NCBI RefSeq assembly: GCF_008728835.1 | Contig: NZ_CP042582.1 | Location: forward strand, 5,315,001-5,379,000 | Origin: Hypericibacter adhaerens | GTDB lineage: Bacteria > Pseudomonadota > Alphaproteobacteria > Dongiales > Dongiaceae | Direction of reading: 5' to 3' | DNA length: 64,000 bases | In this document: positions 13,449 to 34,515 of the stretch, piece by piece | Position numbering within the stretch: position 1 is the first letter of the stretch | Layout of the letters: the number at the start of each line of letters is the position of its first letter | The notes under the pieces: model-generated | Database searches by the model: none | What the model saw: the letters and a program-made list of their open reading frames with translations, nothing else | What the model was told of the DNA's origin: nothing | Program-made: the position numbers and the translations under genes

Positions 13449-13460
13449 GGGACGGGAAGC

Positions 13461-13494
13461 CGGAGCCGCCGCGGTTGCCTCCGCGGCGGCTCCG
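13461..13494 (-). terminator. Intercistronic hairpin after the binding-protein gene
   Basis: A perfect 14-base stem (CGGAGCCGCCGCGG with its complement, six-base loop TTGCCT) sits between the binding protein and first permease. There is no T-run, so it is better read as an mRNA-stabilising or attenuating structure giving more binding protein than permease. Confidence 0.6.
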
Positions 13495-13510
13495 TTTCTC
13501 GGGCTCGAGG

Positions 13511-16377: not shown

Positions 16378-16461
16378 GGGACATCCTTGGGGCTCTGGGG
16401 AAATGCGGGCGACAGGGTAGCGCCCCACGCCGCGAAAACCAGCCCGAGGATCTGAAGTCTG

Positions 16462-17793
16462 CTACAGCTTTCGCGCCAGCTCGCCGACGACCTGGACCGG
16501 CGCGAAGACCGGCGAATAGGGTGGCGCGTAGGCGAGATCGAGCTCCGCCAGATCGTCCGCCGTGAGCTTCGCCCAGATGGCGGTGGCGGCGATGTCGATA
16601 TATTTATCGACGCCGTCCGGCCCCACGGCCTCCGCCCCCAGGAGACGCCCGTCCCGCCGGTCCACCAGCAGCCAGCCGTCGAGCATCCGGGAATTGGGCA
16701 TGTAGCGGGCCCGGCTCGGCATCTGGGCATGGACCGGGACCGGATCGAATCCGCTCCGCCGCGCCTGCTCGGCCGAGAGCCCGGTGCGCGCCACCGCCAG
16801 GTCGAAGACCTTGAAGATCGCGGTGCCGAGAACGCCGGGAAAGCGCGCCTGACCGCCGGCGAGGTTGGTGCCGGCGACCCGGCCCTGGCGATTGGCGATA
16901 TCGCCCAGCGGATACCAGACGGGCTTGCCGGAGACGACGTGACGCGCCTCCGCGCAATCCCCGGCGGCATAGGCACCCGCGATGCCGGTGCGCATCGCGG
17001 CGTCGACCGCGATGGCACCCGTTTCCCCGAGCTTCACGCCCGCGGCGGCGGCCAGATCGGTCCGCGGCCGGACGCCGACTGCCATCAGCACGTGATCGGC
17101 GGGGAGAACGATCCCGTCCGAGAGCCTGACACCCTCCTTGCCGACCTGCGCCACCGACGCGCCGAGCACCACCTCGACGCCATGCTTGGCGAGATGCTCG
17201 CCCACGATACCGGCGACAGCGGGATCGAAGGCGGGCAGCAGCCGGGGCATCGCCTCGACGAGCGTCACCCTGAACCCGCGATGGCGCAGGGTTTCGGCCA
17301 TTTCCAGGCCGATATAACCGCCGCCGACGATGACGGCGCGTCCGGGCGGCGAGAGCAAGGGCTGCAGCCGGTCCGCATCATGGAGGCTGCGCAGCGGCAG
17401 CACCGGCGGCGCGTCCGTCGTCACCGTGATCGGCGGCATGAAGGCCTGGGCGCCGGTCGCGAACAGGATCAGGTCGAAGGGCTCGGCCGACCGGCTGCCG
17501 GTGTCGAGCGCGGTCAGATGCGCGCGCCGCGCGTCGAGATTCACCTCGTCGACGCGATGGCGGACCCGGAGATCGATCCCGTCGGCGCGGAAACGCTCGA
17601 CGCTGCGCGCGATCAGCTTATCGCGCGGGATCGCCGCCGGATCGCCCAACCAGTAGGGAAGGCCGCAGGCGGAATAGGAAACCTCGGGCTCGTCCTGCAG
17701 GACCAGGATGTCGAGCTCCGGCCGCCGCCGCCGGGCTGTGGCGGCGGCCTTCATCCCGGCGGCGACCCCGCCGACGATCAGGACCCGCGTCAC
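16462..17793 (-). CDS. CoA-disulfide-reductase-like flavoprotein, last gene of the CoM operon
   Basis: A 443-residue FAD/NAD(P)H flavoprotein: FAD-binding VLIVGGVAAGMKAA, single redox cysteine Cys43 in YSACGLPYWLGD, NAD-binding VIVGGGYIGLEMAE (about 158-171), YAAGDCAE near 290, and the family tail LAYAPPYSPVFAPV. The single cysteine and tail place it with CoA-disulfide reductases and NADH oxidases rather than two-cysteine reductases. The start is GTG at 17793, 14 nt after the upstream stop. In this operon it could reduce CoM disulfides, catalyse the reductive last step of CoM synthesis, or cleave a CoM thioether; these roles are inference. Confidence 0.85.
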   Translation of the reverse strand: MTRVLIVGGVAAGMKAAATARRRRPELDILVLQDEPEVSYSACGLPYWLGDPAAIPRDKLIARSVERFRADGIDLRVRHRVDEVNLDARRAHLTALDTGSRSAEPFDLILFATGAQAFMPPITVTTDAPPVLPLRSLHDADRLQPLLSPPGRAVIVGGGYIGLEMAETLRHRGFRVTLVEAMPRLLPAFDPAVAGIVGEHLAKHGVEVVLGASVAQVGKEGVRLSDGIVLPADHVLMAVGVRPRTDLAAAAGVKLGETGAIAVDAAMRTGIAGAYAAGDCAEARHVVSGKPVWYPLGDIANRQGRVAGTNLAGGQARFPGVLGTAIFKVFDLAVARTGLSAEQARRSGFDPVPVHAQMPSRARYMPNSRMLDGWLLVDRRDGRLLGAEAVGPDGVDKYIDIAATAIWAKLTADDLAELDLAYAPPYSPVFAPVQVVGELARKL

Positions 17794-17807
17794 GATCGGC
17801 CGGCCCC

Positions 17808-19244
17808 TTACTGGCCGTGCTTCGCCCAATGGGCCCCGAAGATCGTCTCGGGCGTGATGGCCCGGGGCTTCAGCGGCCGCGAGACCCAGGTCAGGTTCAT
17901 AAAATGCCGGGCGCTGACATTCTCGGTCGTGATGTTGCCGCCCCAGCTGCCGCAGGCGAGCGATAGCGTGTAGGGCATGCCGTTGCGCAGGCTGCCGGCG
18001 CCCTCGTTCAGGTTCTGGTTGACCATGACCCGCGCCGTCTTGGTGCGCGTGGCGAGCGCCTCGATATGGGCCTCGTTCGTGGTGTGGATGCCGCAGGTAT
18101 GGCCCAGCCCCTGATAGCCGATGATGCGGTTGACCCAGTCGATGGCGCCGCCGATCCCGCCCTGATAGCGATAGAGCGCCAGCACCACCGACAGCTTCTC
18201 GCCGGAGAACGGGTGATCCGGCCCCGCGCCGTCCTCCTCGACGATGAGGAAGCTGCGGTCCTCGGGCAGCGCGAAGCCCGCCAGCTCGGCGATCCGTCCC
18301 GCCGGCTTCGCCACCACGTCGATGGTGGGGATATGGCCGCCATCCGGCCACATCGCCCGCGCCAGGCGCGCCTTCTGCTCCGGCGTGCAGAGATGGCCGC
18401 CGGCGGCGATCAGCTTGTCGCGCAAGCTGTCATAGATCCGGGCCTCGGCCACCACCGCATTGTCGGCGAGGCAGCTCGTGGCATAGTCGAAGGTCTTGGC
18501 CCGCGCGATCATCAGGGCCGCGTCGTCGAGATCGGCCGTCTCGTCGACGACATGGACGGAATTGCCCACGCCGACGCCATAGGCCGGCGTGCCCGAGCTG
18601 TAGGCGGCCTTGACCATGGCGGCACCGCCGGTGGCGACGACGAGATCCGAGAGCCGCATCAGCGCCTCCGTCTTGGCGATCGAGGGCTGCTCGATGACCT
18701 GGATCAGGTCCTCCGGCGCGCCCACGCTGCGGCAACCCTGGCGCATCGCCTCGACCACCGCGATCGAGGTCCGCTTGGTGCGGGGATGCGGCGAGACGAC
18801 GATGGCGTTGCGGGCCTTGAGCGCGCCCAGCGCCTTCACCGGCGGGGTCGCATCGGGGCCGGTGGTGGGAATGAGCGCCGCGATCACGCCGACCGGCTTG
18901 GCGATCTTGACCAGGCCTTTCTCCGGGATCTCCTCCACCACCCCGCAGGTCTTGATGCTGGCCATATCCGCCAGCGTTCCCATGACGCGGTTCTCGAACT
19001 TGGCGATCTTGTCCTGATAGCGGCCGAAGCCGCCCTCATCGACGGCCAGACGCGCGAGCGCCTCCCGGTTCTTGAACACCTGCCAGCCCACGGCGGTCAC
19101 GAGCGCATCGGCCTCTGCCTGGCCATAGTTCTGGATCGCCTGCTGGGCACGGCGCGCGCGGGCGACCATGGCGGCGATCTCGGCTTGCGCTTCCTCCGGC
19201 GTCTGCTTGGCCGGCTTGTCGAGCTTGGCGGTGACGGCGCTCAT
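17808..19244 (-). CDS. CoA-acylating aldehyde dehydrogenase, sulfoacetaldehyde dehydrogenase (SauS)-like
   Basis: A 478-residue member of the CoA-acylating ALDH branch (EutE/AdhE/SauS), which converts an aldehyde plus CoA and NAD(P)+ to an acyl-CoA. The catalytic thiol is Cys258 in YATSCLADN; VGVIAALIPTTGPDATP and GVGVGNSVHVVDE are typical of the branch. The overall sequence looks closest to acylating sulfoacetaldehyde dehydrogenases. In a CoM operon, plausible substrates are sulfoacetaldehyde or 2-oxoethyl-CoM formed from a C2 epoxide. The gene follows an ADP-forming acyl-CoA synthetase by 36 nt, a pairing also seen for sulfoacetate use. Substrate choice is inference. Confidence 0.8.
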   Translation of the reverse strand: MSAVTAKLDKPAKQTPEEAQAEIAAMVARARRAQQAIQNYGQAEADALVTAVGWQVFKNREALARLAVDEGGFGRYQDKIAKFENRVMGTLADMASIKTCGVVEEIPEKGLVKIAKPVGVIAALIPTTGPDATPPVKALGALKARNAIVVSPHPRTKRTSIAVVEAMRQGCRSVGAPEDLIQVIEQPSIAKTEALMRLSDLVVATGGAAMVKAAYSSGTPAYGVGVGNSVHVVDETADLDDAALMIARAKTFDYATSCLADNAVVAEARIYDSLRDKLIAAGGHLCTPEQKARLARAMWPDGGHIPTIDVVAKPAGRIAELAGFALPEDRSFLIVEEDGAGPDHPFSGEKLSVVLALYRYQGGIGGAIDWVNRIIGYQGLGHTCGIHTTNEAHIEALATRTKTARVMVNQNLNEGAGSLRNGMPYTLSLACGSWGGNITTENVSARHFMNLTWVSRPLKPRAITPETIFGAHWAKHGQ

Positions 19245-19280
19245 GGGGTGTTTCCTTTCAGGGTCCGTGGTGAGCCAGGG

Positions 19281-21383
19281 TCAGGGATGGGAGGCAATCG
19301 CGGCGGCTGCCGGCGTCGTGGCGGACGCCCGCATGCGCAGATCGACGATGGCGAGACCGTCGGGCGTGGCGATGACCGGATTGGCATCCAGCTCTTCGAG
19401 CCAGGCGGCGCCGGCGACCCAGCGCGACAGCGCGGCGATGAGGCGGGCCAGCGCTTGGCGATCGATGGCCGGCCGGCCGCGCCCGCCCTCCAGCAGGGAT
19501 CGGCCCTTCAGCCCGTCCAGCATGGCGAGCGCCTCGGCCTCGTCGACGGGCGCCAGGCGCAGGGCGACATCGTTCAGGGCCTCGACCCAGATGCCGCCGA
19601 GGCCGGCCATGATCACGGGCCCGAAATTGGCGTCGCGCCGAGCACCCAGAACGAGCTCGATCCCCGGACGTGCCTGGCGCTGCAGCAGCACCGTGGACGT
19701 TCCCAGCCGTGCGGCGACCTGGTCATAGGCCGCACCCACGGAATCGGGCGTGGCGAGGCCGAGATGCACGCCGCCGCTGTCGGACTTGTGGATCAGGCCG
19801 GCCCGCTCCGCCTTCAGCACGACCGGCAGGCCCAGCGCCTCGGCGCCCGCGATCGCGTCGCGGCGCGAACGCGCCAGTTTCCAAGGAACGACCGGAAGGC
19901 CGGCCTCGGCGAAAAGCCCGAAGGCCTGATCGGAAGACAGCCAACCGCCCTCGCCCACCGTCCGGGGACGGGCGACCGGGCGGTCGACCGCCGGCCGCGC
20001 CGGCGCCCTGGCGACAGGCCGGGTCAGCGCGAGAAGCTGGGCGGTTCGCGCCGGCCAGCCATGGCAGGGAATGCCGGCCGCGAGCAGCCGCTGCCGGTTC
20101 TCCGCGGCGGTGGCCGGCGCCACCCAGCAGACATGGACCGGTTTCTTCGAGCCGCGCGCGCGGGCTGCGGCGACGGCGGCGATGACGCGGTCCGTCACCT
20201 CCGGCATCAGCGCCGAGCGCTGCAGCAGCACCGGCACGACGCCGTCCACCTCGTCGCTCTCCAGCAGGGCCTCCAGGCTGATGCCGTACATCTCGGGGAA
20301 GCGGCGCCATTCGGTGGTCACGTCGACGGGATTGGCCGCCGAGCCATAGGCGGGCAGCGCGGGACGGATCGCCGATTGCAGCGCTTCCGACAGGCCCGGC
20401 ACCCGCAGGCCCTGCGCTTCCATGAGATCGGCGAGCTCGACGCCGGTGCCGCCGGAATTGGTGATGACGGCGATCCGCCGGCCGGTCAGCGGCGGCTGGC
20501 GGTCGAGCGTCGCAGCGAGATCGAGCAGCGTCAGCCCGTCTTCCACCAGATGGATGCCGGCCTGGCGCAAGGCCGTCAGCGTCACGGCGGTATCGGTGGC
20601 GAGGGCCGCGGTGTGGCTCGCGGCCGCGCGCCGGCCTGCCTCCCCGCGCCCCGTCTTCAGGACGACGATCGGCTTGCGCGGGGCGATCTCCGCGGCCGCC
20701 TCGAAGAAGCGGCGGCCATCGCCGATCGATTCGAGCAGCATGGCGATGACCCGCGTCTCCGGATCGCGGCCGAAGGCGCGGAGCATGTCGGTCTCGTCGA
20801 TGTCGGCCTTGTTGCCGCAGGCGACCACGCGGGAGAAGCCGATGAGATCCTCCTGGGAGCGCGTGAAGGCCGCCATGCCGTAGGCGCCGCTCTGGGTATA
20901 GAGCGCGATGCCGCCCCGCGCCGGCATGCCCAGCCCGAGCGAGGCGTTGAGGCCTGCGGACGCGCTGATGACGCCGAAGCAGTTGGGGCCGACGATGCGC
21001 ACGCCCCCGGCCCGCGCCGCCTCGAGCGTGCGCCGCTCGAGCGCCTGGCCCCCGGCCCCGGTCTCGGCGAAGCCGCCGCTGATGATGACGGCGAGAGGCA
21101 CCGCCGCCTTGGCGCAATCGGCGAGGATCGCCGGCGCCTCGGCTGGCGGCGCCACGATCACGGCGAGATCGGCGCCGCCGGGAATGGCGGCGAGGCTCGG
21201 ATAGCCGGGCCGGCCCAGGATCTCCGTCAGCTTCGGATGCACCGCGACGACCTCGCCGCGAAAGCCGGAATCGGCTGCGGTGAGGTTCTGCATGAAGAGA
21301 TGGCCGAGCTTGCCCGGGGTCGCCGAGGCGCCGACCAGGGCGACGCGGCGCGGCGCGAACAGCGCTCGCTCCCAATCGCTCAC
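19281..21383 (-). CDS. ADP-forming acyl-CoA synthetase (fused alpha-beta form)
   Basis: A 700-residue NDP-forming acyl-CoA synthetase. Order of domains: CoA-binding Rossmann domain (1-130, VALVGASATPGKLG), succinyl-CoA-synthetase-like domains with the phospho-histidine in AAASHTAAL (about 240), and a C-terminal ATP-grasp domain (480-690, LPVVLKAERAGLIHKSD and ELDANPVI). It makes or uses acyl-CoA reversibly with ADP/ATP. The ATG overlaps the upstream stop (ATGA). Neighbouring acylating dehydrogenase suggests they work on the same acid/aldehyde pair, for example sulfoacetate, or a carboxylate derived from CoM-bound C2 units; acetate or acetoacetate activation is also possible. Confidence 0.85.
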   Translation of the reverse strand: MSDWERALFAPRRVALVGASATPGKLGHLFMQNLTAADSGFRGEVVAVHPKLTEILGRPGYPSLAAIPGGADLAVIVAPPAEAPAILADCAKAAVPLAVIISGGFAETGAGGQALERRTLEAARAGGVRIVGPNCFGVISASAGLNASLGLGMPARGGIALYTQSGAYGMAAFTRSQEDLIGFSRVVACGNKADIDETDMLRAFGRDPETRVIAMLLESIGDGRRFFEAAAEIAPRKPIVVLKTGRGEAGRRAAASHTAALATDTAVTLTALRQAGIHLVEDGLTLLDLAATLDRQPPLTGRRIAVITNSGGTGVELADLMEAQGLRVPGLSEALQSAIRPALPAYGSAANPVDVTTEWRRFPEMYGISLEALLESDEVDGVVPVLLQRSALMPEVTDRVIAAVAAARARGSKKPVHVCWVAPATAAENRQRLLAAGIPCHGWPARTAQLLALTRPVARAPARPAVDRPVARPRTVGEGGWLSSDQAFGLFAEAGLPVVPWKLARSRRDAIAGAEALGLPVVLKAERAGLIHKSDSGGVHLGLATPDSVGAAYDQVAARLGTSTVLLQRQARPGIELVLGARRDANFGPVIMAGLGGIWVEALNDVALRLAPVDEAEALAMLDGLKGRSLLEGGRGRPAIDRQALARLIAALSRWVAGAAWLEELDANPVIATPDGLAIVDLRMRASATTPAAAAIASHP

Positions 21384-22396
21384 GGTGCCCCGTCCCGGCC
21401 CACGAACAGGCTCGGCGCCCCGCCGCTATGGAGGAACAGCAGCGTCTCGTCCTCGCGGTAGCGCCCGCCCGCCGCCAGGGCGCGATAACCGGCAAGCGCC
21501 TTCGCCGTATAGGTCGGATCGAGCAGGACCCCCTCGTGGCGGGCGGCCAGCGCCAGGACGCTCTCGCCCTCGGGCGAGGGGATGCCGTAGCCGGCGCCGA
21601 TGAAGCCGTCATGGATCGTCACGTCACCCGGCGCGAGGGACCATCGCTGTCCGAGCCGTTCCGCGGCTTCGGTGGCCAGGGCCGCGACGCGCTGGCGGGC
21701 TTCCACGGCCGGCCGGCTGACGGTCACGCCCTCGACGCGCCATCGCACGCCGCAGAGATGCGAGCCCAGAAGCCAGCCGGCCATGGTACCGCCCGAACCC
21801 ACCGCCATCAGGACGCAATCGGGGTCGATCCCGGTCTCGGCGCATTGCGCCATGACCTCCGCCACGGCCAGCACATGGCCGATCGCGCCCAGCGCGCAGG
21901 CCCCGCCGCGCGGAACGACATAAGGACGGCCGCCTTCCGCCTGAATCCGCCGGGCTTCCGCGTCGAGGGCACGATCGACGGAGCTGCGGTCGCTCTCGCC
22001 GGTGAAGCGGGTCTCCGCACCCCACAGCACACTCAGCCGGTGATTGCCTTCGAGCCGCGCCGGCGCCGTGCCCCAATAGACGGCGACCATCCGCAGGCCG
22101 GCGAAGCTCGCCGCCGCCGCCGTCGCCCGCACATGGTTCGACAGCGGCCCGGCGCCGGTCACCACCGTGTCGGCGCCGGTCTCGAGGGCGTCGGCGATGA
22201 TGAGCTCGAGGCCGCGAACCTTGTTGCCGCCGAAGCCGAAAGGGATGAGATCGTCGCGCTTCATCCAGAGCGAAGGCCCGCCCAGCGCATGGCCCAGCGC
22301 CGGCACCGGCAAGAGCGGCGTCGGCGCGGGGATCAGCGCCAGCCGCGGCAGCTCGCGCGGGTCGGCGACCTGCTCGAGCGGCTTCGATGCCCTCAC
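21380..22396 (-). CDS. xcbE: PLP-dependent enzyme of the D-cysteine desulfhydrase family, XcbE1-like (CoM biosynthesis)
   Basis: A 338-residue fold-type II PLP enzyme. The Schiff-base lysine is Lys59 in FGFGGNKVRGLE, the phosphate loop is GSGGTMAGWLLG (about 195), and the overall pattern (PTPLLPVPALGHALGGPSLWMKRDDL) matches D-cysteine desulfhydrase/ACC deaminase and L-cysteate sulfo-lyase. In Xanthobacter the equivalent protein XcbE1 belongs to the bacterial CoM pathway and is linked to its thiolation step. The start is GTG at 22396 overlapping the previous stop (GTGA), with GGGGAG before it. Alone it would be annotated as D-cysteine desulfhydrase; context with ComA and two aspartase/fumarase enzymes makes the CoM role much more likely. 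Confidence 0.85.
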   Translation of the reverse strand: MRASKPLEQVADPRELPRLALIPAPTPLLPVPALGHALGGPSLWMKRDDLIPFGFGGNKVRGLELIIADALETGADTVVTGAGPLSNHVRATAAAASFAGLRMVAVYWGTAPARLEGNHRLSVLWGAETRFTGESDRSSVDRALDAEARRIQAEGGRPYVVPRGGACALGAIGHVLAVAEVMAQCAETGIDPDCVLMAVGSGGTMAGWLLGSHLCGVRWRVEGVTVSRPAVEARQRVAALATEAAERLGQRWSLAPGDVTIHDGFIGAGYGIPSPEGESVLALAARHEGVLLDPTYTAKALAGYRALAAGGRYREDETLLFLHSGGAPSLFVGRDGAP

Positions 22397-23748
22397 CGCT
22401 CGCTCCCCAGCACCTGATCCACCAAGGCCCCGCATTGAGCCGTCCGCGAGGTGGCGTCGAACAGGCGGTCGATCTCCCCCCGCGACAGATGCGCGGAGAT
22501 CTCGGGATCGGCTTCGACCGCCTGACGGAGCGGGCGCCCGGCGCGCGCCGCTTCGGTGGCGGCGCGATGCATGAGCCGGTGCGCCGTCTGCTTGCCCAGC
22601 TTGGCGGCCAGCGTCAGCATGACGGCTTCCGAATAGATATGGCCGTTGGAGGCTTCGAGGTTGCGGCGCATGCGCTCGCCGCGCACCTCGAGATGCTCGA
22701 GCAGCGTGGCGGTCAGGCTCAGCGCTTTGGCCGCCGCGAGCGTCAGCTCCGGCACCGCATGCCACTCGATCTTCCAGGAACGCCCGTCGCGCTCATGGGC
22801 ATGGGGCAGGCTTTCCAGCAGCGCGCCGGCATTGGCGCGGACCACGCGGGAGAGCGTGCCGATATGTTCCGAGAGCTCGGGGTTGCGCTTGTGCGGCATG
22901 GTGATGGAGCCGATCTGCTCGGTCGTGGCGCCCTCGCCCAGCTCGCCGATCTCGTCGCGCTGCAGCGAATAGACCTCGTGGCCGATACGGTCGGCGGTGC
23001 CCGACGCCAGCGCCAGAACCTGAGCCCATTCGACCAGCACGTCCCGGCTCGCGGTCCAGGAGGTCGCGGGCGGACGCAGCCCGAGCCGGGTACAGAAGGC
23101 GCGCTGGACCTCGAGCGCCCGAGGCCCCAGGGCCGACAGGCTGCCCACCCCGCCGCAAAGCTGGCCGATATCCATGCGCTGCGCGGTCTCGTCGAAGCGC
23201 TGGCGGTGGCGGCGCAGCTCCGCGAGCCAGCCGGCCGCCTTGAAGCCGAAGGTGATGGGCAACCCCTGCTGGCCATGGGTGCGCCCGGCCATCACGGTAT
23301 CGCGATGCTCGCGGGCGAGCCGGGTGGCGGCGGCGATGGCGCGATCGAGATCGGTGAGGATGAGGCCGCGCGCCTCGCGCAGCGCCAGCATCAGCCAGGT
23401 ATCAGTGATGTCCTGGACCGTGGCGCCGAAATAGAACCATTCGCCGGCGGCCGCCGGGCAGCGCCGCCGCATCGCCTCGATCAGGCCGGCCGTCGAATGG
23501 CCGCTCGCCTCGTAGCCGGCGCGGTATTCGGCGAAGAACGCGTCGTCGAGCTCGACCGTCCGGCAGGTGGCGGCGACCTGCCGGGCGCTTTCGGCCGGGA
23601 TCAGGCCGAACTCGCCCTGAACCTCCGCCAGCACGGCGAGGATCTCGAGCCAGCGCCGCGTGCGCGGGACGTCGTCGAAGATCTGGCGCAGCGCCGGCGT
23701 CGACCAGGCGCCGCCATAGACGCGCGAGCCGAAGGACCAGCCCGTCAT
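22393..23748 (-). CDS. Aspartase/fumarase-superfamily enzyme, XcbD1-like (CoM biosynthesis)
   Basis: A 451-residue member of the aspartase/fumarase superfamily, resembling adenylosuccinate lyase: FGATVQDITDTW (about 100), GRTHGQQGLPITFG, and the signature SITMPHKRNPELSE carrying the mobile catalytic loop. A purine role is unlikely because it sits in an operon between another superfamily member and a D-cysteine-desulfhydrase-like enzyme, the same company kept by XcbC1/XcbD1/XcbE1 in Xanthobacter. By gene order I match it to XcbD1, associated with the decarboxylation step after sulfoacrylate forms; the C/D assignment is inference. ATGA overlap with the upstream gene. Confidence 0.8.
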   Translation of the reverse strand: MTGWSFGSRVYGGAWSTPALRQIFDDVPRTRRWLEILAVLAEVQGEFGLIPAESARQVAATCRTVELDDAFFAEYRAGYEASGHSTAGLIEAMRRRCPAAAGEWFYFGATVQDITDTWLMLALREARGLILTDLDRAIAAATRLAREHRDTVMAGRTHGQQGLPITFGFKAAGWLAELRRHRQRFDETAQRMDIGQLCGGVGSLSALGPRALEVQRAFCTRLGLRPPATSWTASRDVLVEWAQVLALASGTADRIGHEVYSLQRDEIGELGEGATTEQIGSITMPHKRNPELSEHIGTLSRVVRANAGALLESLPHAHERDGRSWKIEWHAVPELTLAAAKALSLTATLLEHLEVRGERMRRNLEASNGHIYSEAVMLTLAAKLGKQTAHRLMHRAATEAARAGRPLRQAVEADPEISAHLSRGEIDRLFDATSRTAQCGALVDQVLGSER

Positions 23749-25262
23749 CGGCCGCCCGCTCCCATCGCTTCGGCTTCGGTCAGCAGGCGCCGCCGGGCGG
23801 CCTCCTGGGCCGACCGCGCCTCTTCCAGCCAGCGCCGACAGGGCGTGAGCGCGTCGCCCAGCTCGCGCAGCGCCGCCGCCAGCTCTTCCGGCGCGGCACC
23901 GCCGACGTCCTGGCGCGCCGTCACGCCGGCCCAGGGATCGAGAGCCGCCTCGAGAAAGCCGTCCGGCAGCCGCGAGGCTTCGAGCCCCGCTTCCGCGCAG
24001 GCCGCCCGCAGCTTGTCGAGGGTCAGGCTCGACAGGCTGCGGCCTTCCGCTTCCAGCCGGCGGACCAGCCCGCCCACCAGGCGATGCGCCGCCCGGTAGT
24101 CGAGCCGAAGCGCGAGGCAGAGGCGCTCGGCCAGATCGGTGGCGCAGGCCGTGCCGTCGCTCAGCGCCAGCTCGGCCTGGTCGCTCTCGAAGGTGAGCTC
24201 CTCGACGATCTCGGCCATCAAGCTTGCCGCCTGCGCCACGCTGCGCAGCGCCGCCGGCACCGCCTCGTAGGGCAGCATCCGGTTGTCCATCTGGCCCGAG
24301 GGCGTGCGGCCGCTGGCGGCGACACCGGCCTGCTCGCCGATCAGCCGGTTGGCGAGGCCGCGCAGATAGGACAGCGCGAAGGGGTTGCGCTTCTGCGGCA
24401 TGATCTTGCTGGCGCGCGCGTGCCGGTCCGCGACTCTCACGAGACCGAACTCGGCGGTGGCGAAGATCATCAGATCCTCGGCCAGGCGGTCGAGCCCGAC
24501 GGCGGCGGCCACGGCGAGCCCCATGGCCTCGATCGCGAGGTCGGGCTGCCACATCGCGTCGCGCGCATGGCGCACCGGCGCCGCGAAGCCGAGACGGCGG
24601 GCCTGCGCCGCGCGATCCTGGAGCGCGACCGAGCCGTTGCTGCTGCCGCAACCCGCGGGACAGCGATCGATGCGCTCGTAAAGCGCCTTCACCCGCTCCA
24701 GGTCGCGCAGCGCCGGCCAGGCGAAGGCGGAGAGATAATGGCCCAAGGTGGTCGGCTGGGCGATCTGCAGATAGGTATAGTCGGGCATCAGGCTGTGGCT
24801 GTGGCGCGACGCGACTGTCGCGACCGACTGGCCGAAATCGAGCAGGGCCGCGCCGAGCTCGAGCAGCCGGTCGCGCAGCAGAAGATGAAAGGCCGTGGTC
24901 AGTGCTTCGCGGCGCGCCCGCGCGGTGCCGAGCCATCCCGCCGCCGCCGTCCGCCGGGCCAGCCAGGCTTCCCGGTTCGTGTAGAGATCGCCCAGCGCCG
25001 CCTCGGGCGTGAAGGCCGTGCCGGAGCGGTGCAGCTCCAGCAGGGCCTGGACGAGCGCGCGCGCGGCCCCGGGGGGAATGACGCCCTGCTCGCTCAAGGT
25101 CAGGCAATGGGCGAGATCGACCAGGCCGAGAGGATCGAAGAATTCGGCTTGTCCGGCGAGCTCGGCGGCAAAGATGGCGGTGAGACCCGCCGACGGCGGC
25201 TCGGCGAGGCGCCCGCCGATCTCGAGCACCGATTCCATCGAGCCCGCCCGCGGCTCAGCCAT
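23745..25262 (-). CDS. Aspartase/fumarase-superfamily enzyme, XcbC1-like (CoM biosynthesis)
   Basis: A 505-residue aspartase/fumarase-superfamily protein with argininosuccinate-lyase-like features: [39 protein letters not shown] and the signature [17 protein letters not shown] long C-terminal extension (about 400-505) rich in Ala and Glu is unusual for argininosuccinate lyase. It directly follows phosphosulfolactate synthase with an eight-nucleotide overlap, the position expected of XcbC1, which eliminates phosphate from phosphosulfolactate to give sulfoacrylate. Start ATG at 25262; an internal ATG at 25238 is possible. Specific reaction is inferred from context. Confidence 0.8.
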
Positions 25263-26163
25263 GGCCCGGCGGCTCCCGGATGACAATTCCATCGACGGGA
25301 GGAGGCTCGGCGGGCTCGGTCTGGGCGGGATTCCAATGGCCGCTCCTCTGTTCCCGCGTCGCGATCTGCGTCAGCGTCTCGTAGCGCAGGCCCGATCGCA
25401 GCGCCTCCAGCGCCAGGGTCTCGCGGGCTGCGATATTGCCGAGATTGACGTTGGCGCCGAAGCGCCCCACCAGCGCCGCCTGCTGGTCCTTGCGCGGCGC
25501 CTCCCAGACCAGGCGATCGATGGCGGGACCGACGCGCCGTGTCACGTCCTCCAGGAAATCGCCGCGCAGCGCGCCGCTGTCGTCATAGATCCCGATGCCG
25601 CGGCCCGATTCGCGCGCCTCGACGATCACCCAGGCGGCACCCCATTCGATATCCTTGAGCGCCTGCTCCGCGAGCGTGCCGGCATCCGGCTGCTGCGCGG
25701 GGTCCTTCTTGCCCACCTCCGTGATGGCGACCAGCCCGGCATCGCAGGCGCAGGCGATCACCCGTTTCCGGCGGTCGGGCGGCAGGCTGATGGTGCCGTC
25801 CGAGATCTCGACCGCGCGGAAGCCCAGCTCGCGCGCCCGGCGCATATAGACCCGGCAATGCTGCTGGACGATCGCCGCCTCCAGCAGCGTGCCGCCCGGA
25901 TAGGTCAGGACATCGTGCTCCGCCAGCAGCTCGAGCTTCTGCCGGAGCAGCGGCAGCGACATCAGCGCCGAGGTGCCGAAGGCGAACTTCCAATGATCGA
26001 TATGCGGGGCCGCGAGCTCCAGCATGTCGGCCGTCTCCATGCGGCCGAGGCCCGTATCGATCACCATGGTGATGCCGTGCGCGCGCGGGCGCTGCAGCCG
26101 CCGGTCGACGGCGGCATCCAATCCCCACACGCCCTGCCAGGGACGTTCCGGTCTAGACAACAC
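25255..26163 (-). CDS. xcbB: Phosphosulfolactate synthase, ComA/XcbB1 type (first step of CoM biosynthesis)
   Basis: About 302 residues, adding sulfite to phosphoenolpyruvate to give phosphosulfolactate. The ComA hallmarks run in order: [51 protein letters not shown] and [13 protein letters not shown], a TIM barrel with phosphate-binding glycines and the EISDG and EVGKK acidic/lysine pairs. No ATG is near; GTG at 26163 (AGGAG ten bases upstream) is my choice, TTG at 26160 the alternative. It overlaps the preceding unknown gene by 11 nt. In bacteria such genes mark sulfolactate or CoM synthesis; here the xec genes in the same operon point to CoM. Confidence 0.92.
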
Positions 26164-27112
26164 GACGCACCAGCTCCTGGAGGGCTTTCTCGACCATGGC
26201 GAAATCCGATCCCCAGGGCACCGTGACGACATTGCCCTGGCATTCGGTGTTGAACTCGAGCAGGCAGCATTTGAGGATGGTGAGCTCGTTGCGCGCGCCG
26301 GCGATGGCGCGAGGGCACATCTCGATGCGCGGCGGCTCGTCGCCGTAATAGTGGCGATGGAACTGCAGGCTGCGCTCGCAGCCGATCAGCACCCAGTCCT
26401 CCCGCTGCGCCGGCCGCTCGTCGAGAAAATGCAGCGGCGCCCCCAGATCGTCCAAGCCGCCGGAGCGGCAGGGAACGAGGAAGGCCTTCGGATGGGTCGT
26501 CGCGGCCAGGTCGCGCAGCTCGATGCGCTCGAGCTCGAGCCGGATCGGCGGCAGGTCCGCATAGGTGAGGACATGCTCGATCAGATGGAACAGCTTGGGC
26601 GGTTCCGGCGGCGCTACCTCGACCACCCGGATCACCAGGGGATCGGGATGATGGATGAAATTCACATGGTCGTATTTGCCCTGGCAGATGAGCGTGCCGT
26701 CAGGTCCGACCCCGCTGCGGGCGGCAAGAGCCGCCAGCGCCGAGCGGTTGGCGCAGTCGGTCTCCGGATCGGTGACGAAGCGGCAGCTCTCGGGCAGGGC
26801 CAGCACCTCGACATGCTCGATCGGCGCGAACAGCGCCTCCCGGTTCGTGGCGCCGATGGCGACCAGCGCGTAAGCGTCGTTCGCCCCGCGCAGCACGATC
26901 ACGTTGGTCCGCCGGTAGGCCTCGCGGCCCAGCAGATGCGCCGTGATGGCCGCCTGCGTCATCGCGCCCTCATAGGGCTGCACGCTGACGCCGCGATAGG
27001 GCAGCTCCACGACATTGCGGCGATCGCGGAGCGAGGGCCATTTCGGTCCGTCGGCGGCGTCCGCCGCCGGGCGGGAAGGCATCCGCAATGTGGGCCGGCG
27101 CGCGGACATCAC
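26153..27112 (-). CDS. Conserved protein of unknown function in the CoM operon
   Basis: A 319-residue soluble-looking protein that I do not recognise. Visible points: a central segment [17 protein letters not shown] with paired histidines, a [20 protein letters not shown] stretch suggesting a linker and helix, and several scattered cysteines ([29 protein letters not shown]). No signal peptide or membrane helix. The start is GTG at 27112, overlapping the CoA-transferase stop (GTGA), or the adjacent ATG at 27109. Being locked between CoA-transferase and phosphosulfolactate synthase by overlaps, it is a good candidate for a missing or accessory CoM function such as sulfite or sulfur delivery; this is speculation from position. 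Confidence 0.75.
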
Positions 27113-27948
27113 GCCACCGCGAAGCGCCGGCCGCGATCGTCGGGCCGGATTTCATGCTCGTGAACCCGCAGCGGATCGAGACGGCGAATGAGCGCCACGG
27201 TCTCGCGGTCCGGCGCCGGCAGGACCGCCACGGGCCCGGCGGTCCGGACCTCGAAGCCGGTGTTCTCCCGGACCTCCTCGACCGTGATGTCCGGGTAGAG
27301 GGCCTGAAGCCGGGCATGACCTTCGGGGTCGAAATCGAACAGGCCGAGATCGGTCACCAGCCATTCGGGTCCCTGGCCGCGATGGCCCAGCTCGCGCCGG
27401 TCGCGGCCATCGGCGGTGCGATGACCGAGATTGGTGACGAAGTCGCAGACCTCGACCAGGCGGAAGCGCCGCTTCCCTGCGGAATCCGGCGGCGAACGGT
27501 GCCCCGTCGTCCAGAGCGTCAGATGCTGCACGTCGCAGGAGAGGTTGCAGCCCCCGCCGCCGCCCGGCAGCTTGAGCGCGAGCTTGCTCTTCCCCAGCCG
27601 CGTGACGTTGCAATTGCCCCATTTGTCGATCTGCAGGCCGGAGAGGAACATGCGTCCCATGCGTCCGGCGGCGGCCAGGTCGAACAGCTCCTCGATGTCG
27701 AGGGAGGACGAGGCGCCGCGATCCATGACCCAGTCGTTCGAGGTGGGGGCCAGAAAGGGAGGATCGGGATCCACGCCATAGGTGGCGCCGGCGATCAGCA
27801 CCATGTTCGGCGCGTGGGTCCGCTTGGCGACATGCATGGCGAGCTGGACGAGCGGCGATCCGAAGCCATGGAAGGCGAGCTTCCCGTCCTCGATGGTGCG
27901 CGCGATGGCGGCGATCATGAATTCGCCCAGGCTGCAATCGTGGATCAC
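27109..27948 (-). CDS. CoA-transferase subunit B (GctB/IpdB-like)
   Basis: A 279-residue beta subunit of a family I CoA-transferase, the type that includes glutaconate and 3-oxoacid CoA-transferases. Landmarks: GFGSPLVQLAMHVAKRTHAPNM, FLSGLQIDKWGNCNVTRLG, the glycine-rich PGGGGGCNLSC segment and the tail EEVRENTGFEV. The start is GTG at 27948 (GTGA overlap with subunit A, GAGGTG upstream), giving [10 protein letters not shown]. With subunit A it should move CoA from an acyl-CoA donor to a carboxylate; acetoacetate, the product of the xec pathway, is the natural candidate, giving acetoacetyl-CoA for thiolysis. Substrate is inference. Confidence 0.85.
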   Translation of the reverse strand: MIHDCSLGEFMIAAIARTIEDGKLAFHGFGSPLVQLAMHVAKRTHAPNMVLIAGATYGVDPDPPFLAPTSNDWVMDRGASSSLDIEELFDLAAAGRMGRMFLSGLQIDKWGNCNVTRLGKSKLALKLPGGGGGCNLSCDVQHLTLWTTGHRSPPDSAGKRRFRLVEVCDFVTNLGHRTADGRDRRELGHRGQGPEWLVTDLGLFDFDPEGHARLQALYPDITVEEVRENTGFEVRTAGPVAVLPAPDRETVALIRRLDPLRVHEHEIRPDDRGRRFAVA

Positions 27949-28931
27949 GCCGTCACCTCTTCGCGATAGAGGGACATCCAGGCCGCTTCGCCCGCGGACC
28001 ACGAGGCCAGGCGCCGGCGCGTGGCCTCGCCGATGCGCGCCAGATAGGCGGCATGATCGGGACAGCCATGGACGAAGGGCTGGAGATAGTCGGCCGAGAA
28101 ACGCTCGGGGCCCCCGCGGGCCGCCTCGTAATAGAGCGCCGTGTGCGGCCGGTCATAGGCATAGAACGGGTAGCAGGCCGTGGGATGGGCGCCCAGGGGC
28201 AGCTCCGCCAGGGCGGTGACGTAGAAATAGGGGATCGTGATGCCGCCCAGCTCGATCAGCCGCTCGGTGGACACGATCGTCTCCACCGAGGCGATCACCG
28301 ATCGCGACGCCTTGGCGAAGAGCAGGTCCATCACCGGCGGACCCTCGATGCGCAGGTTCCCCTGGGCGTCCCCGTACTGGGCATGGAGGATGGCCACGTC
28401 CGGTGCCAGCGCCGGCACCAGCAGCAACTCCTGGCCGGTGTAGGGACAAGTGATCGTCTTGTATTCCGGGTGAAGCTCGGGAAAGGAGGTGCCGCGCACG
28501 GAGCGGACCGGCATGAAAGGCAGCCCGAGCACGGCCGCGCGGAGCTGCTGGACCAGCGTGTAGCAGCAGCTGTCGTCGACCTTGACCTCGCCGCTCTCGC
28601 AGGCGCGCCGATAGTTGGGCGCGATCCCGAAATCCTGCTCGAACCCGACATAGCTTTCGGAGGAGCAGGAGACGGCACCGCCGCCGCACAGCAGGTCGAT
28701 ATCGATGCCATGGGCCGAGCCGACCGCGCGCAGGCCGCGGATGCGCCGGCGCAGGAGGGCGCGCAGGATCGCCATCGGCTCGCGCGAGGAGAGCCCGCCG
28801 CCCACGGCGATCATGTCGCCGTCCTTGACCAGCGCCGCGAGGTCTTCCAGCCGCGTCCGCTTGTCGGGGCGCGTATGGATCCCGTCGTCCCGGCGCGGCC
28901 CCTCCCGATGCGGCGTGCGAGGGTCGTTCAT
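27945..28931 (-). CDS. CoA-transferase subunit A (GctA/IpdA-like)
   Basis: A 328-residue alpha subunit. After a polar N-terminus of about 25 residues it shows the family start KTRLEDL-type helix, [23 protein letters not shown], the [14 protein letters not shown] segment and [22 protein letters not shown], all typical of glutaconate-type CoA-transferase alpha chains. It overlaps both xecE (ATGA) and subunit B (GTGA), ensuring equal amounts. Together with the ADP-forming synthetase further down it gives the operon two independent means of making CoA thioesters from pathway acids. Confidence 0.85.
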
Positions 28932-29695
28932 ATCGCGGTCATGCCCCCATCCACGGCGAAGGCGGCACCGGAGACGAAGGCGGCCTGGTCGCTCAGGAGG
29001 AAGACGACCGCTTCGGCGATGTCCTCGGGGTTGCCGAAACGCCCGATCGGGTATTTCGCCAGGCGCCGTGCCTGGGTTTCCGGGCTGGTATCGCTGCCCA
29101 GGAGCTGCTGGCCCATGCCGGTGGAAGCGACGGTGCCGGGGCAGACGGCATTGACCCGCACGCCCTTGCCCGAATAGTCCGCCGCCATCTGGCGCGTGAG
29201 GTTCACGATGGCGCCCTTGGCCGCGCAGTAGGCGGCCATGGTCGGGATGCCGACGACACCGGCGACCGATCCGAAATTGACGATCGAGCCCTTGCGCCGC
29301 GCCAGCATGCCGGGCAGCACCGCCTTCGAGGCGAGGAAGGTGCCGGTCACGTTCACCGCCATGATCCGGTCCCAGGCCTTGGGATCGGCCTCGTGGACGG
29401 AGCCGAAGCCCGCGATGCCGGCATTGTTGACGAGGCCCGAGAGCGGGCCGACGGCCTGCCCCGCCGAGTCGAGCGCGGCGGCGATGCCGGCGGCGTTGGT
29501 CACGTCGGCGCCGAAGCCGGCCGCCTCGTGTCCCTGCTTGCGCAAGGCGCCGGCCGAGCGACCCGCCAGATCGCCGTCGAGATCGATCAGCGCGACCTTG
29601 GCGCCTTCCCGCACGGCCGCGTTGGCCACGGCCAATCCGATTCCCGCGGCACCGCCGGTGATGGCGATGACCTGTCCTTTCAACCGATCCGACAT
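28928..29695 (-). CDS. xecE: S-2-hydroxypropyl-CoM dehydrogenase (XecE-like SDR)
   Basis: A 255-residue classical SDR oxidising S-2-hydroxypropyl-CoM to 2-oxopropyl-CoM. NAD-binding [14 protein letters not shown] at about 90-93 and the Ser-Tyr-Lys set (Ser143, Tyr156, Lys160) are present. It is strikingly like the Xanthobacter S-specific enzyme ([34 protein letters not shown]) and retains Arg211 and Lys214, the residues known to hold the CoM sulfonate in that enzyme, at the same numbers. 48 nt after the R-specific partner. A generic FabG annotation would miss the CoM clamp. Confidence 0.95.
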
Positions 29696-29743: not shown

Positions 29744-32067
<2,324 letters not shown>

Positions 32068-32142: not shown

Positions 32143-32340
32143 TCAGCCGCTGCAGCAGGGGCAGCCCTTGACGGTTCCCTGCTCCCAGGGGTGAGGCTCG
32201 GGCTTCGTTCCCGACGCGGGTTGGGCGCGCCGGCTGCCGCAATTCGAGCAGGCCCATTCGCGCGGCGGCTCGGTATGAGCCATCACCATTCCCTTGAAGC
32301 GATGGCCGCAATCCGGGCATTGCAGGGTGTAGACGGGCAT
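32143..32340 (-). CDS. Small zinc-ribbon protein between xecA and xecC
   Basis: A 65-residue FmdB-type zinc ribbon: MPVYTLQCPDCGHRF with CxxC, then WACSNCGSRRAQ with a second CxxC, and a C-terminal GCPCCSG that adds further cysteines. A longer frame starts at 32394, but AAGGAGAGG lies just before the ATG at 32340. It sits between xecA (66 nt) and xecC (78 nt) on the same strand. A role as zinc donor or chaperone for the zinc-dependent XecA, or as a small regulator, is possible; neither can be shown from the sequence. Confidence 0.85.
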   Translation of the reverse strand: MPVYTLQCPDCGHRFKGMVMAHTEPPREWACSNCGSRRAQPASGTKPEPHPWEQGTVKGCPCCSG

Positions 32341-32406: not shown

Positions 32407-33534
32407 TCAGGCGGCTTTGCGGTTGCGGATCTCGTCGCGGACGAGCTTCGCGCCTTCGACCATGGCGTGGAGCTTGTCCTTGGCGATGTAGCGCTGCAGC
32501 AGGATCAGCCCGCAATCCGTCGTGACGCCGAGCCGTTCGGCCGGGATGACGCGCAGGAGCTTGCGGATCCGGTCGGCGACCTGCTCGGCCGTCTCCGTGA
32601 TGGTGCTCTTGACGTCGATCACGCCGGCCCAGAAGTCGACGCCATCGGGCAGCGGGAATTCCTTGAAGGTGTCGAGGCCGGAAAGATCGTCCGACCGACG
32701 CCCGCAGGTCTCGAGATTCAGCACGTTGATATGGGCGCCATAGGCCTTCGGCACGATCGAGCGGGTCGCCGAGGGCGCGGCCGCGTCGAGCTTGCGCTTG
32801 GTGAGATCGAACACCTCGCCGGCCTTGGCCGTCTCGTCCGGGTAATAGGCCGGCGTGCCGCCCCAATTGCCCCAGCAGACATGGACGATGACCTTGGCGT
32901 TCTTCACGCCCTCGACCATCGTGTTGAAGGCCTCGATCGCCCAGTCCTCGTAGAAGTAGGGCCAGGTGAACTCGTCGAACTGGATGAAGTCGATGCCGAG
33001 CGCATCGACCTCGAGCACGTCCTGGTTGATCGCCTTGGCGATGGCGAGCGCGCGGTCGCGGCTGTTGCTGTAATGCAGGTCGTTGGTGCATTGCGCCAGC
33101 ACCTGCACGCCCGTGTACTGGATCTTGGTGGGCTTCTTCGTGGCACGGCGGAGCGCCTTGGCCTGCTCGACCATGATCGCGCCGTGGCGACGGACCGCCT
33201 GCTCGAGGGTGCCGGCATGGAGGCGGCTATAGATCGGGAAGCCGAGATGGCCGCCCTTCAGGTCGTAGCCGAGGCGGCGCAGGTAGTAGTAGACGGCCGC
33301 ATCGGCGTAGTTGTCGCCGTGGACGCGACCGTCGGCGATGATGTCGAGCCCCGCGATCTCCTGGTCGAGCGCGACAGCCCCGATGGCGTCCTCGAGAGCC
33401 TCGCGGTTCATCGAGTCCGGCGGCTCCTGATTGCCGGTGAAATGGCGTCCCCAGGACGCATCCCACCAACGCGGATTCGGATAATTCCCGACCATGGAAG
33501 TCGGGATAAGAATCTCTTGACCCCTGATTTTCAT
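32407..33534 (-). CDS. xecA: Epoxyalkane:coenzyme M transferase, XecA (2-hydroxypropyl-CoM lyase)
   Basis: A 375-residue zinc enzyme of the MetE-like barrel family that opens short epoxides with the thiol of CoM. The zinc ligands of the Xanthobacter enzyme, His218, Cys220 and Cys341, are present at identical numbers (VHVCWGNWGG and TTDCGL). The N-terminus IPTSMVGNYPNPRWWD and the DEFTWPYF segment are typical. First gene of the operon, 40 nt after the inferred transcript start, with GGGAGG five bases before the ATG. It lacks the folate domain of methionine synthase, so a MetE annotation would be wrong. Confidence 0.96.
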   Translation of the reverse strand: MKIRGQEILIPTSMVGNYPNPRWWDASWGRHFTGNQEPPDSMNREALEDAIGAVALDQEIAGLDIIADGRVHGDNYADAAVYYYLRRLGYDLKGGHLGFPIYSRLHAGTLEQAVRRHGAIMVEQAKALRRATKKPTKIQYTGVQVLAQCTNDLHYSNSRDRALAIAKAINQDVLEVDALGIDFIQFDEFTWPYFYEDWAIEAFNTMVEGVKNAKVIVHVCWGNWGGTPAYYPDETAKAGEVFDLTKRKLDAAAPSATRSIVPKAYGAHINVLNLETCGRRSDDLSGLDTFKEFPLPDGVDFWAGVIDVKSTITETAEQVADRIRKLLRVIPAERLGVTTDCGLILLQRYIAKDKLHAMVEGAKLVRDEIRNRKAA

Positions 33535-33654: not shown

Positions 33655-33711
33655 TCGGGCAGCGAATTTGCGTAGGGAGTGGCCGGCGTTGCGTGCAGCC
33701 AAGCGGGACTA

Positions 33712-34515
33712 ATGATCGATAAAAACAGAGGAATGCTGACTCTGGAGGAGGCGGCGGAGTATCTCGGCGTGAGCAAGACCTCCTTGCGCCGCTGGACCCG
33801 GGACGGGCTGCTCTCCTGCCATCGCATCGGCGTCCGCGCCGAACGGCGCTTCGACCAGAAGATGCTCGACGAGTTCTTGCTGCGTCGCAGCACGGGCCTG
33901 CCGATCACGATGCCGGGGCGGCCCCCTTCCTTCGCCGATGCGCTGCATCAGGCGGCCCAGGACGGGCGGCACAAGCATGTCTGCCTTTATTTCCGCAACC
34001 CGATCGAGCAGTGGGAGGCGTTCCGCCACTATTTCCTCGATCATTACCGAGCGGGCCTGCCGACCACCTATCTCCATCAGGCCTCGAGCCGCGACCAGCT
34101 TCTCGAGCGGGTCAGCGCCGAAGGCATCGACGCGCAGGACGCCATCAATCGCGGCCTGCTGCGCATCTTCCCCGCGCAGGATTCCTATCTGCGGCAGGGC
34201 GCCTTCTCGGCCGACTTCATGATCTCCTTCATGCGGCTGATCATGGTGCGCATGCGCGACGACGGCTTTCGCAAGCATCTCGTGACGGGCGAGATGGACT
34301 GGTTCTTCTCCAACACGCCCGGCGTCGACGAGATCCACGCCTATGAGCGCCGGCTGAACAAGCTGCTCGACGAGTATCCCGACGTGACCATCGTCTGCCA
34401 GTACGACATCACGCGCTTCGACGGCGAGAACGTGCTGGAAGCCTGCTGCACGCATCCGATCGTCCATCTCGACGAGCAGCTGCGGCAGGGCTTCTTCCTT
34501 CCCCCGCAGGGCTAG
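33712..34515 (+). CDS. DcmR-like regulator: MerR-type helix-turn-helix plus MEDS sensory domain
   Basis: A 267-residue regulator. Residues about 8-60 form an excisionase/MerR-type helix-turn-helix (LTLEEAAEYLGVSKTSLRRWTRDGLL). Residues about 80-260 match the MEDS domain, shared with DcmR, the repressor of dichloromethane dehalogenase, and thought to sense hydrocarbon derivatives: HKHVCLYFRNPIEQWEAFRHYF, RGLLRIFPAQDSYLRQGAF, and CQYDITRFDGENVLEACCTHP. The start may be ATG 33712, GTG 33679 or ATG 33733; none has an ideal ribosome-binding site. It is divergent from xecA and very probably controls the operon through sites in the shared 177-bp gap. Repressor or activator is not decidable. Confidence 0.87.
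   Translation: MIDKNRGMLTLEEAAEYLGVSKTSLRRWTRDGLLSCHRIGVRAERRFDQKMLDEFLLRRSTGLPITMPGRPPSFADALHQAAQDGRHKHVCLYFRNPIEQWEAFRHYFLDHYRAGLPTTYLHQASSRDQLLERVSAEGIDAQDAINRGLLRIFPAQDSYLRQGAFSADFMISFMRLIMVRMRDDGFRKHLVTGEMDWFFSNTPGVDEIHAYERRLNKLLDEYPDVTIVCQYDITRFDGENVLEACCTHPIVHLDEQLRQGFFLPPQG

Follow-up and report, generated by a model that had tools for sequence, protein, structure and literature searches.

The front end of coenzyme M (CoM)-dependent epoxide breakdown is established for propene oxide (the C3 substrate) and, for ethene oxide (C2), up to 2-hydroxyethyl-CoM. Among the closest described systems are the vinyl chloride clusters of mycobacteria, which contain the same gene families as the locus treated here (PMC8727900), and the 13-gene epoxyethane/CoM cluster of Methylohalobius crimeensis, which has the same gene set (PMC11507031). 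The lower ethene/vinyl chloride pathway has been drawn in print, but only a few of its steps are confirmed (PMC11507031). Here we analyze a 64,000-nucleotide stretch of Hypericibacter adhaerens, hereafter the window (NZ_CP042582.1, bases 5315001–5379000 of a 5.87-Mb genome in one contig), in which a CoM epoxide operon ends in an ADP-forming acyl-CoA synthetase (ACS), a predicted CoA-acylating aldehyde dehydrogenase (ALDH) and a single-cysteine disulfide reductase (CDR). Our tentative reading is that this trio serves the C2 epoxide. An earlier note, made from the window's letters alone, had placed three genes of these families at this site. They are intact and on the minus strand, and only the start of CDR had to be moved, to 17793. 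It had also called their combination with C3 carboxylation genes unfamiliar; the combination is already known and not new, as the gene sets of the ethene/vinyl chloride and M. crimeensis clusters are in print (PMC8727900, PMC11507031) and C2 schemes exist.

The dehydrogenase, its partners and its genomic company

ALDH has 478 residues with an Aldedh domain and belongs to the AdhE/EutE/SauS/SucD group. Cys258 is conserved in all 25 CoM-cluster sequences and all nine outgroup sequences, and PDB entries 8cei and 6tqh match across residues 21–456; with the catalytic cysteine and a full-length match the protein falls in the CoA-acylating aldehyde dehydrogenase group, and acylating activity is predicted. 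Its best NCBIfam model is the acylating sulfoacetaldehyde dehydrogenase SauS (NF047625), which it matches with 500.6 bits, below the cut-off of 600, followed by AdhE and EutE-type acetaldehyde dehydrogenases. Three other members of the CoM clade likewise stay below that cut-off (542.3, 509.0 and 519.7 bits), three SauS-type proteins clear it (675.8, 810.7 and 804.6), and a Shinella protein from another setting scores 511.0. Residues 409–420, a loop that we take from ALDH structures to border the aldehyde pocket, read N-x-[NS]-LNEG-AGS-x-R in the CoM clade, and all nine outgroup sequences differ. The four SauS-type rows have N-x-AH-x-F where the clade has NQNLNEG-AGS-x-R; that this loop defines SauS-type enzymes is our reading of those four rows.

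The 25 CoM-cluster sequences form one clade (support 100/100) with SauS-type enzymes as neighbors; the tree is small, its long outgroup branches are unsure, and locus L021 (a fragment) and L038 were left out of it. Identity of the window's ALDH is 61–79% to other clade members and 40–45% to SauS-type rows. The loci were found with six exact peptide patterns from the window's protein, which would miss more distant members, and the sample is not independent (L008 duplicates L009 exactly, and L005/L007 and L010/L011 are near-identical pairs).

ACS (700 residues) combines CoA_binding_2, Succ_CoA_lig, Ligase_CoA_2 and ATP-grasp_5 in one chain, as in ACD-type enzymes, and its PDB relatives are ADP-forming 4-hydroxybutyrate-, 3-hydroxypropionate- and acetate-type CoA ligases. 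The open reading frame (ORF) listed for CDR, 629 residues, is over-extended: the gene starts at a GTG after an AAGGGG-like site, 14 bases past the ALDH stop, for a true length of about 443 residues. CDR misses the CoA-disulfide reductase equivalog TIGR03385 and carries the SxxxCGLPY signature of the wider family. Its single active-site cysteine (SYSACGLPY), already noticed in the earlier note, is kept in 17/17 aligned cluster reductases; a second invariant cysteine lies in an AAGDC stretch, and stretches resembling those of CoA-disulfide reductases (PLGxxAN..GRV, R-[AK]-Y) are kept in all 17 or nearly so. This alignment was made without L013 (a fragment), the L022 protein at 986 (an unrelated oxidoreductase, 30%) and L038 (the same stretch as L020).

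Neighbors were counted for 25 ALDH copies outside the window (21 pattern-found loci, two in Nocardioides JS614 and two in Mycolicibacterium NBB4), some of them near-duplicates or at contig ends. The nearest recognized neighbor is a catabolic gene in 19. In nine it is the 2-oxopropyl-CoM reductase/carboxylase (KPCC), divergent and within 240 bases, which is the usual partner in actinobacteria; ACS and CDR stand on either side in three, ACS in one, a divergent CDR in two, the epoxyalkane:CoM transferase (EaCoMT) in three and a CoA-transferase in one. The biosynthesis gene xcbC is nearest in two copies, both from JS614, and four have no recognized neighbor within 6 kb. Among genomes chosen for having ALDH, the window's own included, KPCC occurs in 18/22. 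ACS and the CoA-transferase (E≤1e-40) each occur in 22/25 genomes, with only ~35% ACS paralogues in G017 and G019.

The most informative genome is that of Thermocrispum agreste (G019), where ALDH and KPCC are divergent, 239 bases apart, and accompanied by a short-chain dehydrogenase (SDR), EaCoMT and XcbA–E. No CDR (E≤1e-60) and no CoA-transferase (E≤1e-40) was found there, and its synthetase is only a 35% paralogue. Across the sample the KPCC cysteine pair is kept in 21 of 22 rows, the ethene degraders JS60 and JS614 among them (one row is a fragment and some are duplicates), and phenylalanine fills the position of Phe501 in all 20 rows that reach it. For residue numbers and roles we assume that Phe/His replace His/Glu near the C-terminus; the window's KPCC has both the CxxxxC pair and this Phe/His.

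A route for the C2 epoxide and competing readings

We give a probability of roughly 0.45 to the reading in which the trio is the C2 (ethene oxide) end of an operon equipped with the C3 (propene oxide) enzymes as well. From the identity, order, conservation and company of the genes, all observed, we infer the reactions of ACS, ALDH and CDR as follows. EaCoMT would open the epoxide with CoM, a front end common to both substrates, and a short-chain dehydrogenase would oxidize 2-hydroxyethyl-CoM to 2-oxoethyl-CoM. KPCC would cleave this compound like 2-oxopropyl-CoM and release CoM; the product would be malonate semialdehyde after carboxylation or acetaldehyde after protonation. From the free aldehyde ALDH, acylating CoA through Cys258, would form malonyl-CoA or acetyl-CoA. 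Handling of the acids (malonate, acetate and the acetoacetate of the C3 branch) may fall to the CoA-transferase and ACS, and CDR may keep the CoM and CoA thiols reduced, for instance by reducing CoM-S-S-CoA.

Cleavage by KPCC is favored by the gene's continued association with ALDH and, in ethene degraders, by the conservation of the cysteine pair and the phenylalanine. JS614, which retains KPCC and two ALDH copies, grows on ethene and normally only cometabolizes propene (PMC8784404). Malonate semialdehyde corresponds to sulfoacetaldehyde with a carboxylate in place of the sulfonate, a likeness that would account for the recruitment of an acylating SauS-like enzyme. Printed schemes run from malonate semialdehyde through malonate to malonyl-CoA (PMC8727900) or invoke a CoM reductase/carboxylase, a bifunctional dehydrogenase and a CoA-transferase (PMC6440738). 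The refinement offered here is that, with ALDH in a CoA-acylating family, malonyl- or acetyl-CoA could arise directly. Sulfonate metabolism offers examples of a CoA-acylating dehydrogenase paired with an ADP-forming ligase (SqwD/SqwKL and HpfX/HpfYZ; PMC11489063), so that energy-saving release of an acid is a further possible role of ACS. A bolder proposal, which we hold more loosely, makes ALDH an unrecognized family dedicated to CoM epoxide catabolism, an acylating malonate-semialdehyde or 2-oxoethyl-CoM dehydrogenase, with KPCC taking the aldehyde as well as the ketone. If true, one operon with one carboxylase would serve C2 and C3 epoxides and supply the cell directly with malonyl-CoA, in a host unable to make the epoxide through the two monooxygenase classes searched.

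Several observations weigh against a C2 branch that runs through KPCC. No KPCC was detected at E≤1e-60 in four of the 22 ALDH genomes (G014, G016, G018 and G021). All four are draft or metagenome assemblies, and EaCoMT of G014 reads in two frames, but they could be true CDR-only routes: G014, G016 and G018 have ALDH with CDR, whereas G021 lacks both KPCC and CDR. The gene adjoining ALDH in the window and in L001–L003 is CDR rather than KPCC, and CDR, found in 23/25 genomes (E≤1e-60, a count that includes generic relatives), is steadier than expected of an accessory. The position of KPCC His506 holds tyrosine in two rows, L031 (a betaproteobacterial metagenome-assembled genome) and L033 (Methylomicrobium sp. 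RS1). Finally, growth on ethene itself is not predicted, since no epoxide source of the soluble diiron (SDIMO) or copper membrane (CuMMO) monooxygenase class was found in the window's genome. A search with JS614 EtnC gave no SDIMO there while its positive controls worked (5/9 other genomes or records); PF02332 had no match there, nor in any control genome; and CuMMO (PF02461), present in 4/7 other genomes, was absent. These searches for an alkene monooxygenase covered SDIMO and CuMMO, not P450s or other epoxide sources, and the bacterium either takes up epoxide made by others or makes it with another class of oxygenase. Among 192 relatives ALDH occurs in one, the window's own genome, a distribution that, taken with the plasmid location of its kin, suggests that the gene was acquired horizontally.

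The main rival follows the first model of the earlier note. ALDH would act on 2-oxoethyl-CoM itself to form the CoA thioester of carboxymethyl-CoM; CDR would then attack the thioether sulfur, free acetyl-CoA and regenerate CoM with NAD(P)H, leaving KPCC for the C3 branch only. We regard this as less likely than our own reading but as a serious rival. CDR comes right after ALDH in the window and in L001–L003, and in L012 and L013 the two form a divergent pair; CDR was found in 23/25 genomes, and four ALDH genomes have no detected KPCC. The conserved stretches of CDR suggest that its substrate may bear CoA, and the example of KPCC shows that a disulfide-reductase fold can cut such a thioether. 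Yet Thermocrispum has ALDH and KPCC with no CDR detected, ethene degraders keep KPCC, and KPCC is the usual partner of ALDH in actinobacteria and the nearest neighbor in 9/25 copies overall. Expression in M. crimeensis points the same way: ethylene raised 11 of the 13 cluster proteins, among them the counterparts of ALDH, ACS and KPCC, and the two reported as not raised are the CDR counterpart and the MEDS protein (PMC11507031). The KPCC counterpart is our reading of a gene given in that paper as "pyruvate/2-oxoglutarate dehydrogenase". The C2 outline of the earlier model fits the gene company, while for its detail, possible as it is, the evidence leans instead to KPCC making a free aldehyde.

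It is considerably less probable that ALDH is a sulfoacetaldehyde dehydrogenase, acting either in CoM biosynthesis in place of XcbA or in CoM salvage through sulfoacetyl-CoA. SauS is its best NCBIfam model, both JS614 copies adjoin xcbC, dehydrogenase–ligase pairs of the SqwD/SqwKL and HpfX/HpfYZ kind exist, and PMC11507031 lists the M. crimeensis dehydrogenase under CoM biosynthesis as an XcbA analogue. Against this, all four CoM-clade proteins scored miss the SauS cut-off that all three SauS-type proteins pass, and the loop differs. XcbA itself has its own gene: the DUF7714 protein of the operon belongs to the XcbA family by NCBIfam (493.1 bits; 470.2 for its counterpart in Xanthobacter autotrophicus Py2; cut-off 150), and the family occurs in 23/25 genomes or records, missing only in G001 and G016. 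Because it is present in all four methanotroph genomes with ALDH (G014, G017, G018 and G021), there is no XcbA role for ALDH to fill in them, and substitution for XcbA was rejected; the evidence argues for correcting the assignment of the M. crimeensis-type dehydrogenase to CoM biosynthesis. Conversely, XcbA–E occur without ALDH on the 316-kb Py2 plasmid, where no such dehydrogenase was found at E≤1e-30, and, over 28.9 kb, on a plasmid of Methylocystis iwaonis (plasmid DNA only was searched). Salvage of CoM or sulfonate, the second model of the earlier note, is not supported and was set aside as a leading explanation, with the cut-off missed, the loop different and the partner ligase of another kind: HpfYZ resembles succinate-CoA ligase (PMC11489063), unlike the fused ACS here, and no SauT- or SucCD-type sulfoacetate ligase adjoins. 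The presence of a genuine XcbA likewise tells against salvage. That ALDH is a plain acetaldehyde or propanal dehydrogenase without a tie to CoM chemistry, as its next-best AdhE and EutE-type models might suggest, is very improbable, given that every sampled clade locus with enough flank lies in a CoM-pathway setting or genome, that the clade's loop is rewritten and that ALDH is confined to one of 192 relatives.

Operon layout and CoM biosynthesis genes

The operon runs on the minus strand from 33534 down to 16462, with EaCoMT first and CDR last, in the order EaCoMT, zinc-ribbon protein, KPCC, SDR1 (R-type), SDR2 (S-type), CoA-transferase B and A, XcbA–E, ACS, ALDH, CDR (Table 1). Chance or mis-called ORFs are ruled out by full-length family matches of the minus-strand genes, irrespective of any ORFs listed on the opposite strand. 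XcbE and ACS overlap by 4 bases, and gaps of 36 and 14 bases separate ACS from ALDH and ALDH from CDR; spacing this short makes one transcript likely. The XcbA–E set is complete, all five proteins scoring above curated cut-offs. The match to 1mo9 extends over the length of KPCC, which retains both its cysteine pair and LFLNPTH, and the SDRs match the solved R- and S-type 2-hydroxypropyl-CoM dehydrogenases (HPCDH), so that the C3 route is complete except for a monooxygenase.

Table 1. Genes of the CoM epoxide operon and its divergent regulator, in window coordinates.
Feature	Position	Strand	Basis
CDR, single-cysteine NAD(P)H/FAD disulfide reductase, CoA-disulfide-reductase family	16462..17793	-	TIGR03385 369.2 bits, cut-off 578.8
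ALDH, predicted CoA-acylating aldehyde dehydrogenase, CoM-cluster clade	17808..19244	-	Aldedh domain, NCBIfam, tree, alignment
ACS, ADP-forming acyl-CoA synthetase, fused alpha-beta type	19281..21383	-	domains; 78% to Py2 Xaut_5066
XcbE, pyridoxal phosphate (PLP) enzyme of CoM biosynthesis, start approximate	21380..22395	-	NF052537 532.6 bits, cut-off 450
XcbD	22393..23748	-	NF052536 695.1 bits, cut-off 600
XcbC	23745..25292	-	NF052535 805.5 bits, cut-off 575
ComA/XcbB phosphosulfolactate synthase, start probably further in	25255..26232	-	TIGR03849 314.7 bits, cut-off 280
XcbA family protein (Pfam DUF7714)	26153..27112	-	NF052538 493.1 bits, cut-off 150; PF24830
CoA-transferase subunit A, start approximate	27109..27948	-	PF01144
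CoA-transferase subunit B	27945..28931	-	PF01144
SDR2, S-type 2-hydroxypropyl-CoM dehydrogenase	28928..29695	-	PDB 4gh5/4itu E=5e-127; 83% to Xaut_5073
SDR1, R-type 2-hydroxypropyl-CoM dehydrogenase	29744..30487	-	PDB 2cfc E=5e-78
KPCC, 2-oxopropyl-CoM reductase/carboxylase	30484..32064	-	PDB 1mo9 E=2e-250; CPHNAC + LFLNPTH kept
65-aa zinc-ribbon protein between EaCoMT and KPCC	32143..32340	-	PF09723 39.2 bits, cut-off 34.4
EaCoMT, epoxyalkane:CoM transferase	32407..33534	-	PF01717; 76.8% to Py2 2-hydroxypropyl-CoM lyase
HTH (helix-turn-helix) + MEDS regulator, divergent from operon	33679..34515	+	PF14417, PF12728

A counterpart of the zinc-ribbon protein, Xaut_4866, stands at the same place in Py2, with further matches in the other Py2 cluster and in L032. 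Downstream of the operon lie genes for a gamma-glutamyltranspeptidase (14785–16428) and a spermidine/putrescine-type importer (10677–14569); the Thermocrispum locus L019 also has a gamma-glutamyltranspeptidase (15767–17569), ~4 kb from its ALDH.

The biosynthesis genes vary in their settings. The M. iwaonis stretch (L050) has XcbA–E-like genes and no match to EaCoMT, KPCC, ALDH, ACS, CDR or the CoA-transferase, perhaps a sign of a methanotroph using CoM outside the epoxide pathway treated here. The JS614 plasmid (L022/L026) holds two CoM biosynthesis blocks, each with its own dehydrogenase and a 3'-phosphoadenylyl sulfate (PAPS) reductase gene, the latter possibly for sulfite supply. XcbF1, the hypothetical protein beside xcbB1 in PMC8727900, appears to be of the XcbA family too, because the JS614 and NBB4 genes adjoining phosphosulfolactate (PSL) synthase match that family. 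The XcbA gene of the main Py2 cluster was read in two frames.

Comparison with described clusters

M. crimeensis shares with the window, in largely the same order, EtnE, an HPCDH-like SDR, the CoA-transferase pair, PSL synthase, two lyases, an XcbE-type enzyme, the synthetase, the dehydrogenase, a CDR-type reductase, a MEDS regulator and, on our reading, a KPCC-like protein, and in neither cluster is there an alkene monooxygenase (PMC11507031). The window differs in having a second HPCDH, a KPCC gene that belongs to the operon and shares its strand, and a host without a CuMMO match. HTH-MEDS type regulators also stand beside ALDH in two Methylococcaceae (L017 5157–5954 and L018 1982–2779; 34% and 33% to the window's), although PMC11507031 states that the clusters of other methanotrophs lack this regulator.

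HGW-Betaproteobacteria-11 (L003 + L030) has the same order of EaCoMT, SDR2, CoA-transferases, XcbA–E, ACS, ALDH and CDR, but KPCC and SDR1 are divergent and not within the operon. The third cluster of Py2 (Xaut_5062–5075) keeps the order SDR1, SDR2, CoA-transferases, XcbA–D, ACS (78%) and CDR (57%), followed by an ABC importer as in the window; it lacks XcbE and ALDH, and its KPCC and EaCoMT are only fragments. The main Py2 propene cluster, which includes the monooxygenase, has none of ACS, ALDH, CDR and CoA-transferase, which bears out the earlier note's claim that the trio is dispensable from propene oxide to acetoacetate. The comparison of Thermocrispum, Py2 and the methanotrophs narrows the question to which aldehyde ALDH takes and whether KPCC or CDR frees CoM. 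The operon itself is compact, intact and on one strand.

SauS and ALDH have a common family, a catalytic cysteine and 40–45% identity, and part ways in score, loop and partner ligase. Closer relatives are found on plasmids: in a tblastn search with ALDH, Nocardioides JS614 reached 70.5% and two Mycolicibacterium NBB4 plasmids 68.5% and 67.2%, the remaining matches listed being none above about 45%. Annotated around these hits are EaCoMT, CoA-transferases, an acetate-CoA ligase-like synthetase, an SDR, an FAD reductase and Xcb genes. As for the synteny with ethene/vinyl chloride degraders that the earlier note had wished to see compared, in JS614 and in NBB4/JS60 all families of the trio lie near EaCoMT, XcbA–E and KPCC, with ALDH at 67–70% identity to the window's and ACS and CDR at 35–49%, although in these strains the genes are split over several transcription units and an SDIMO is present.

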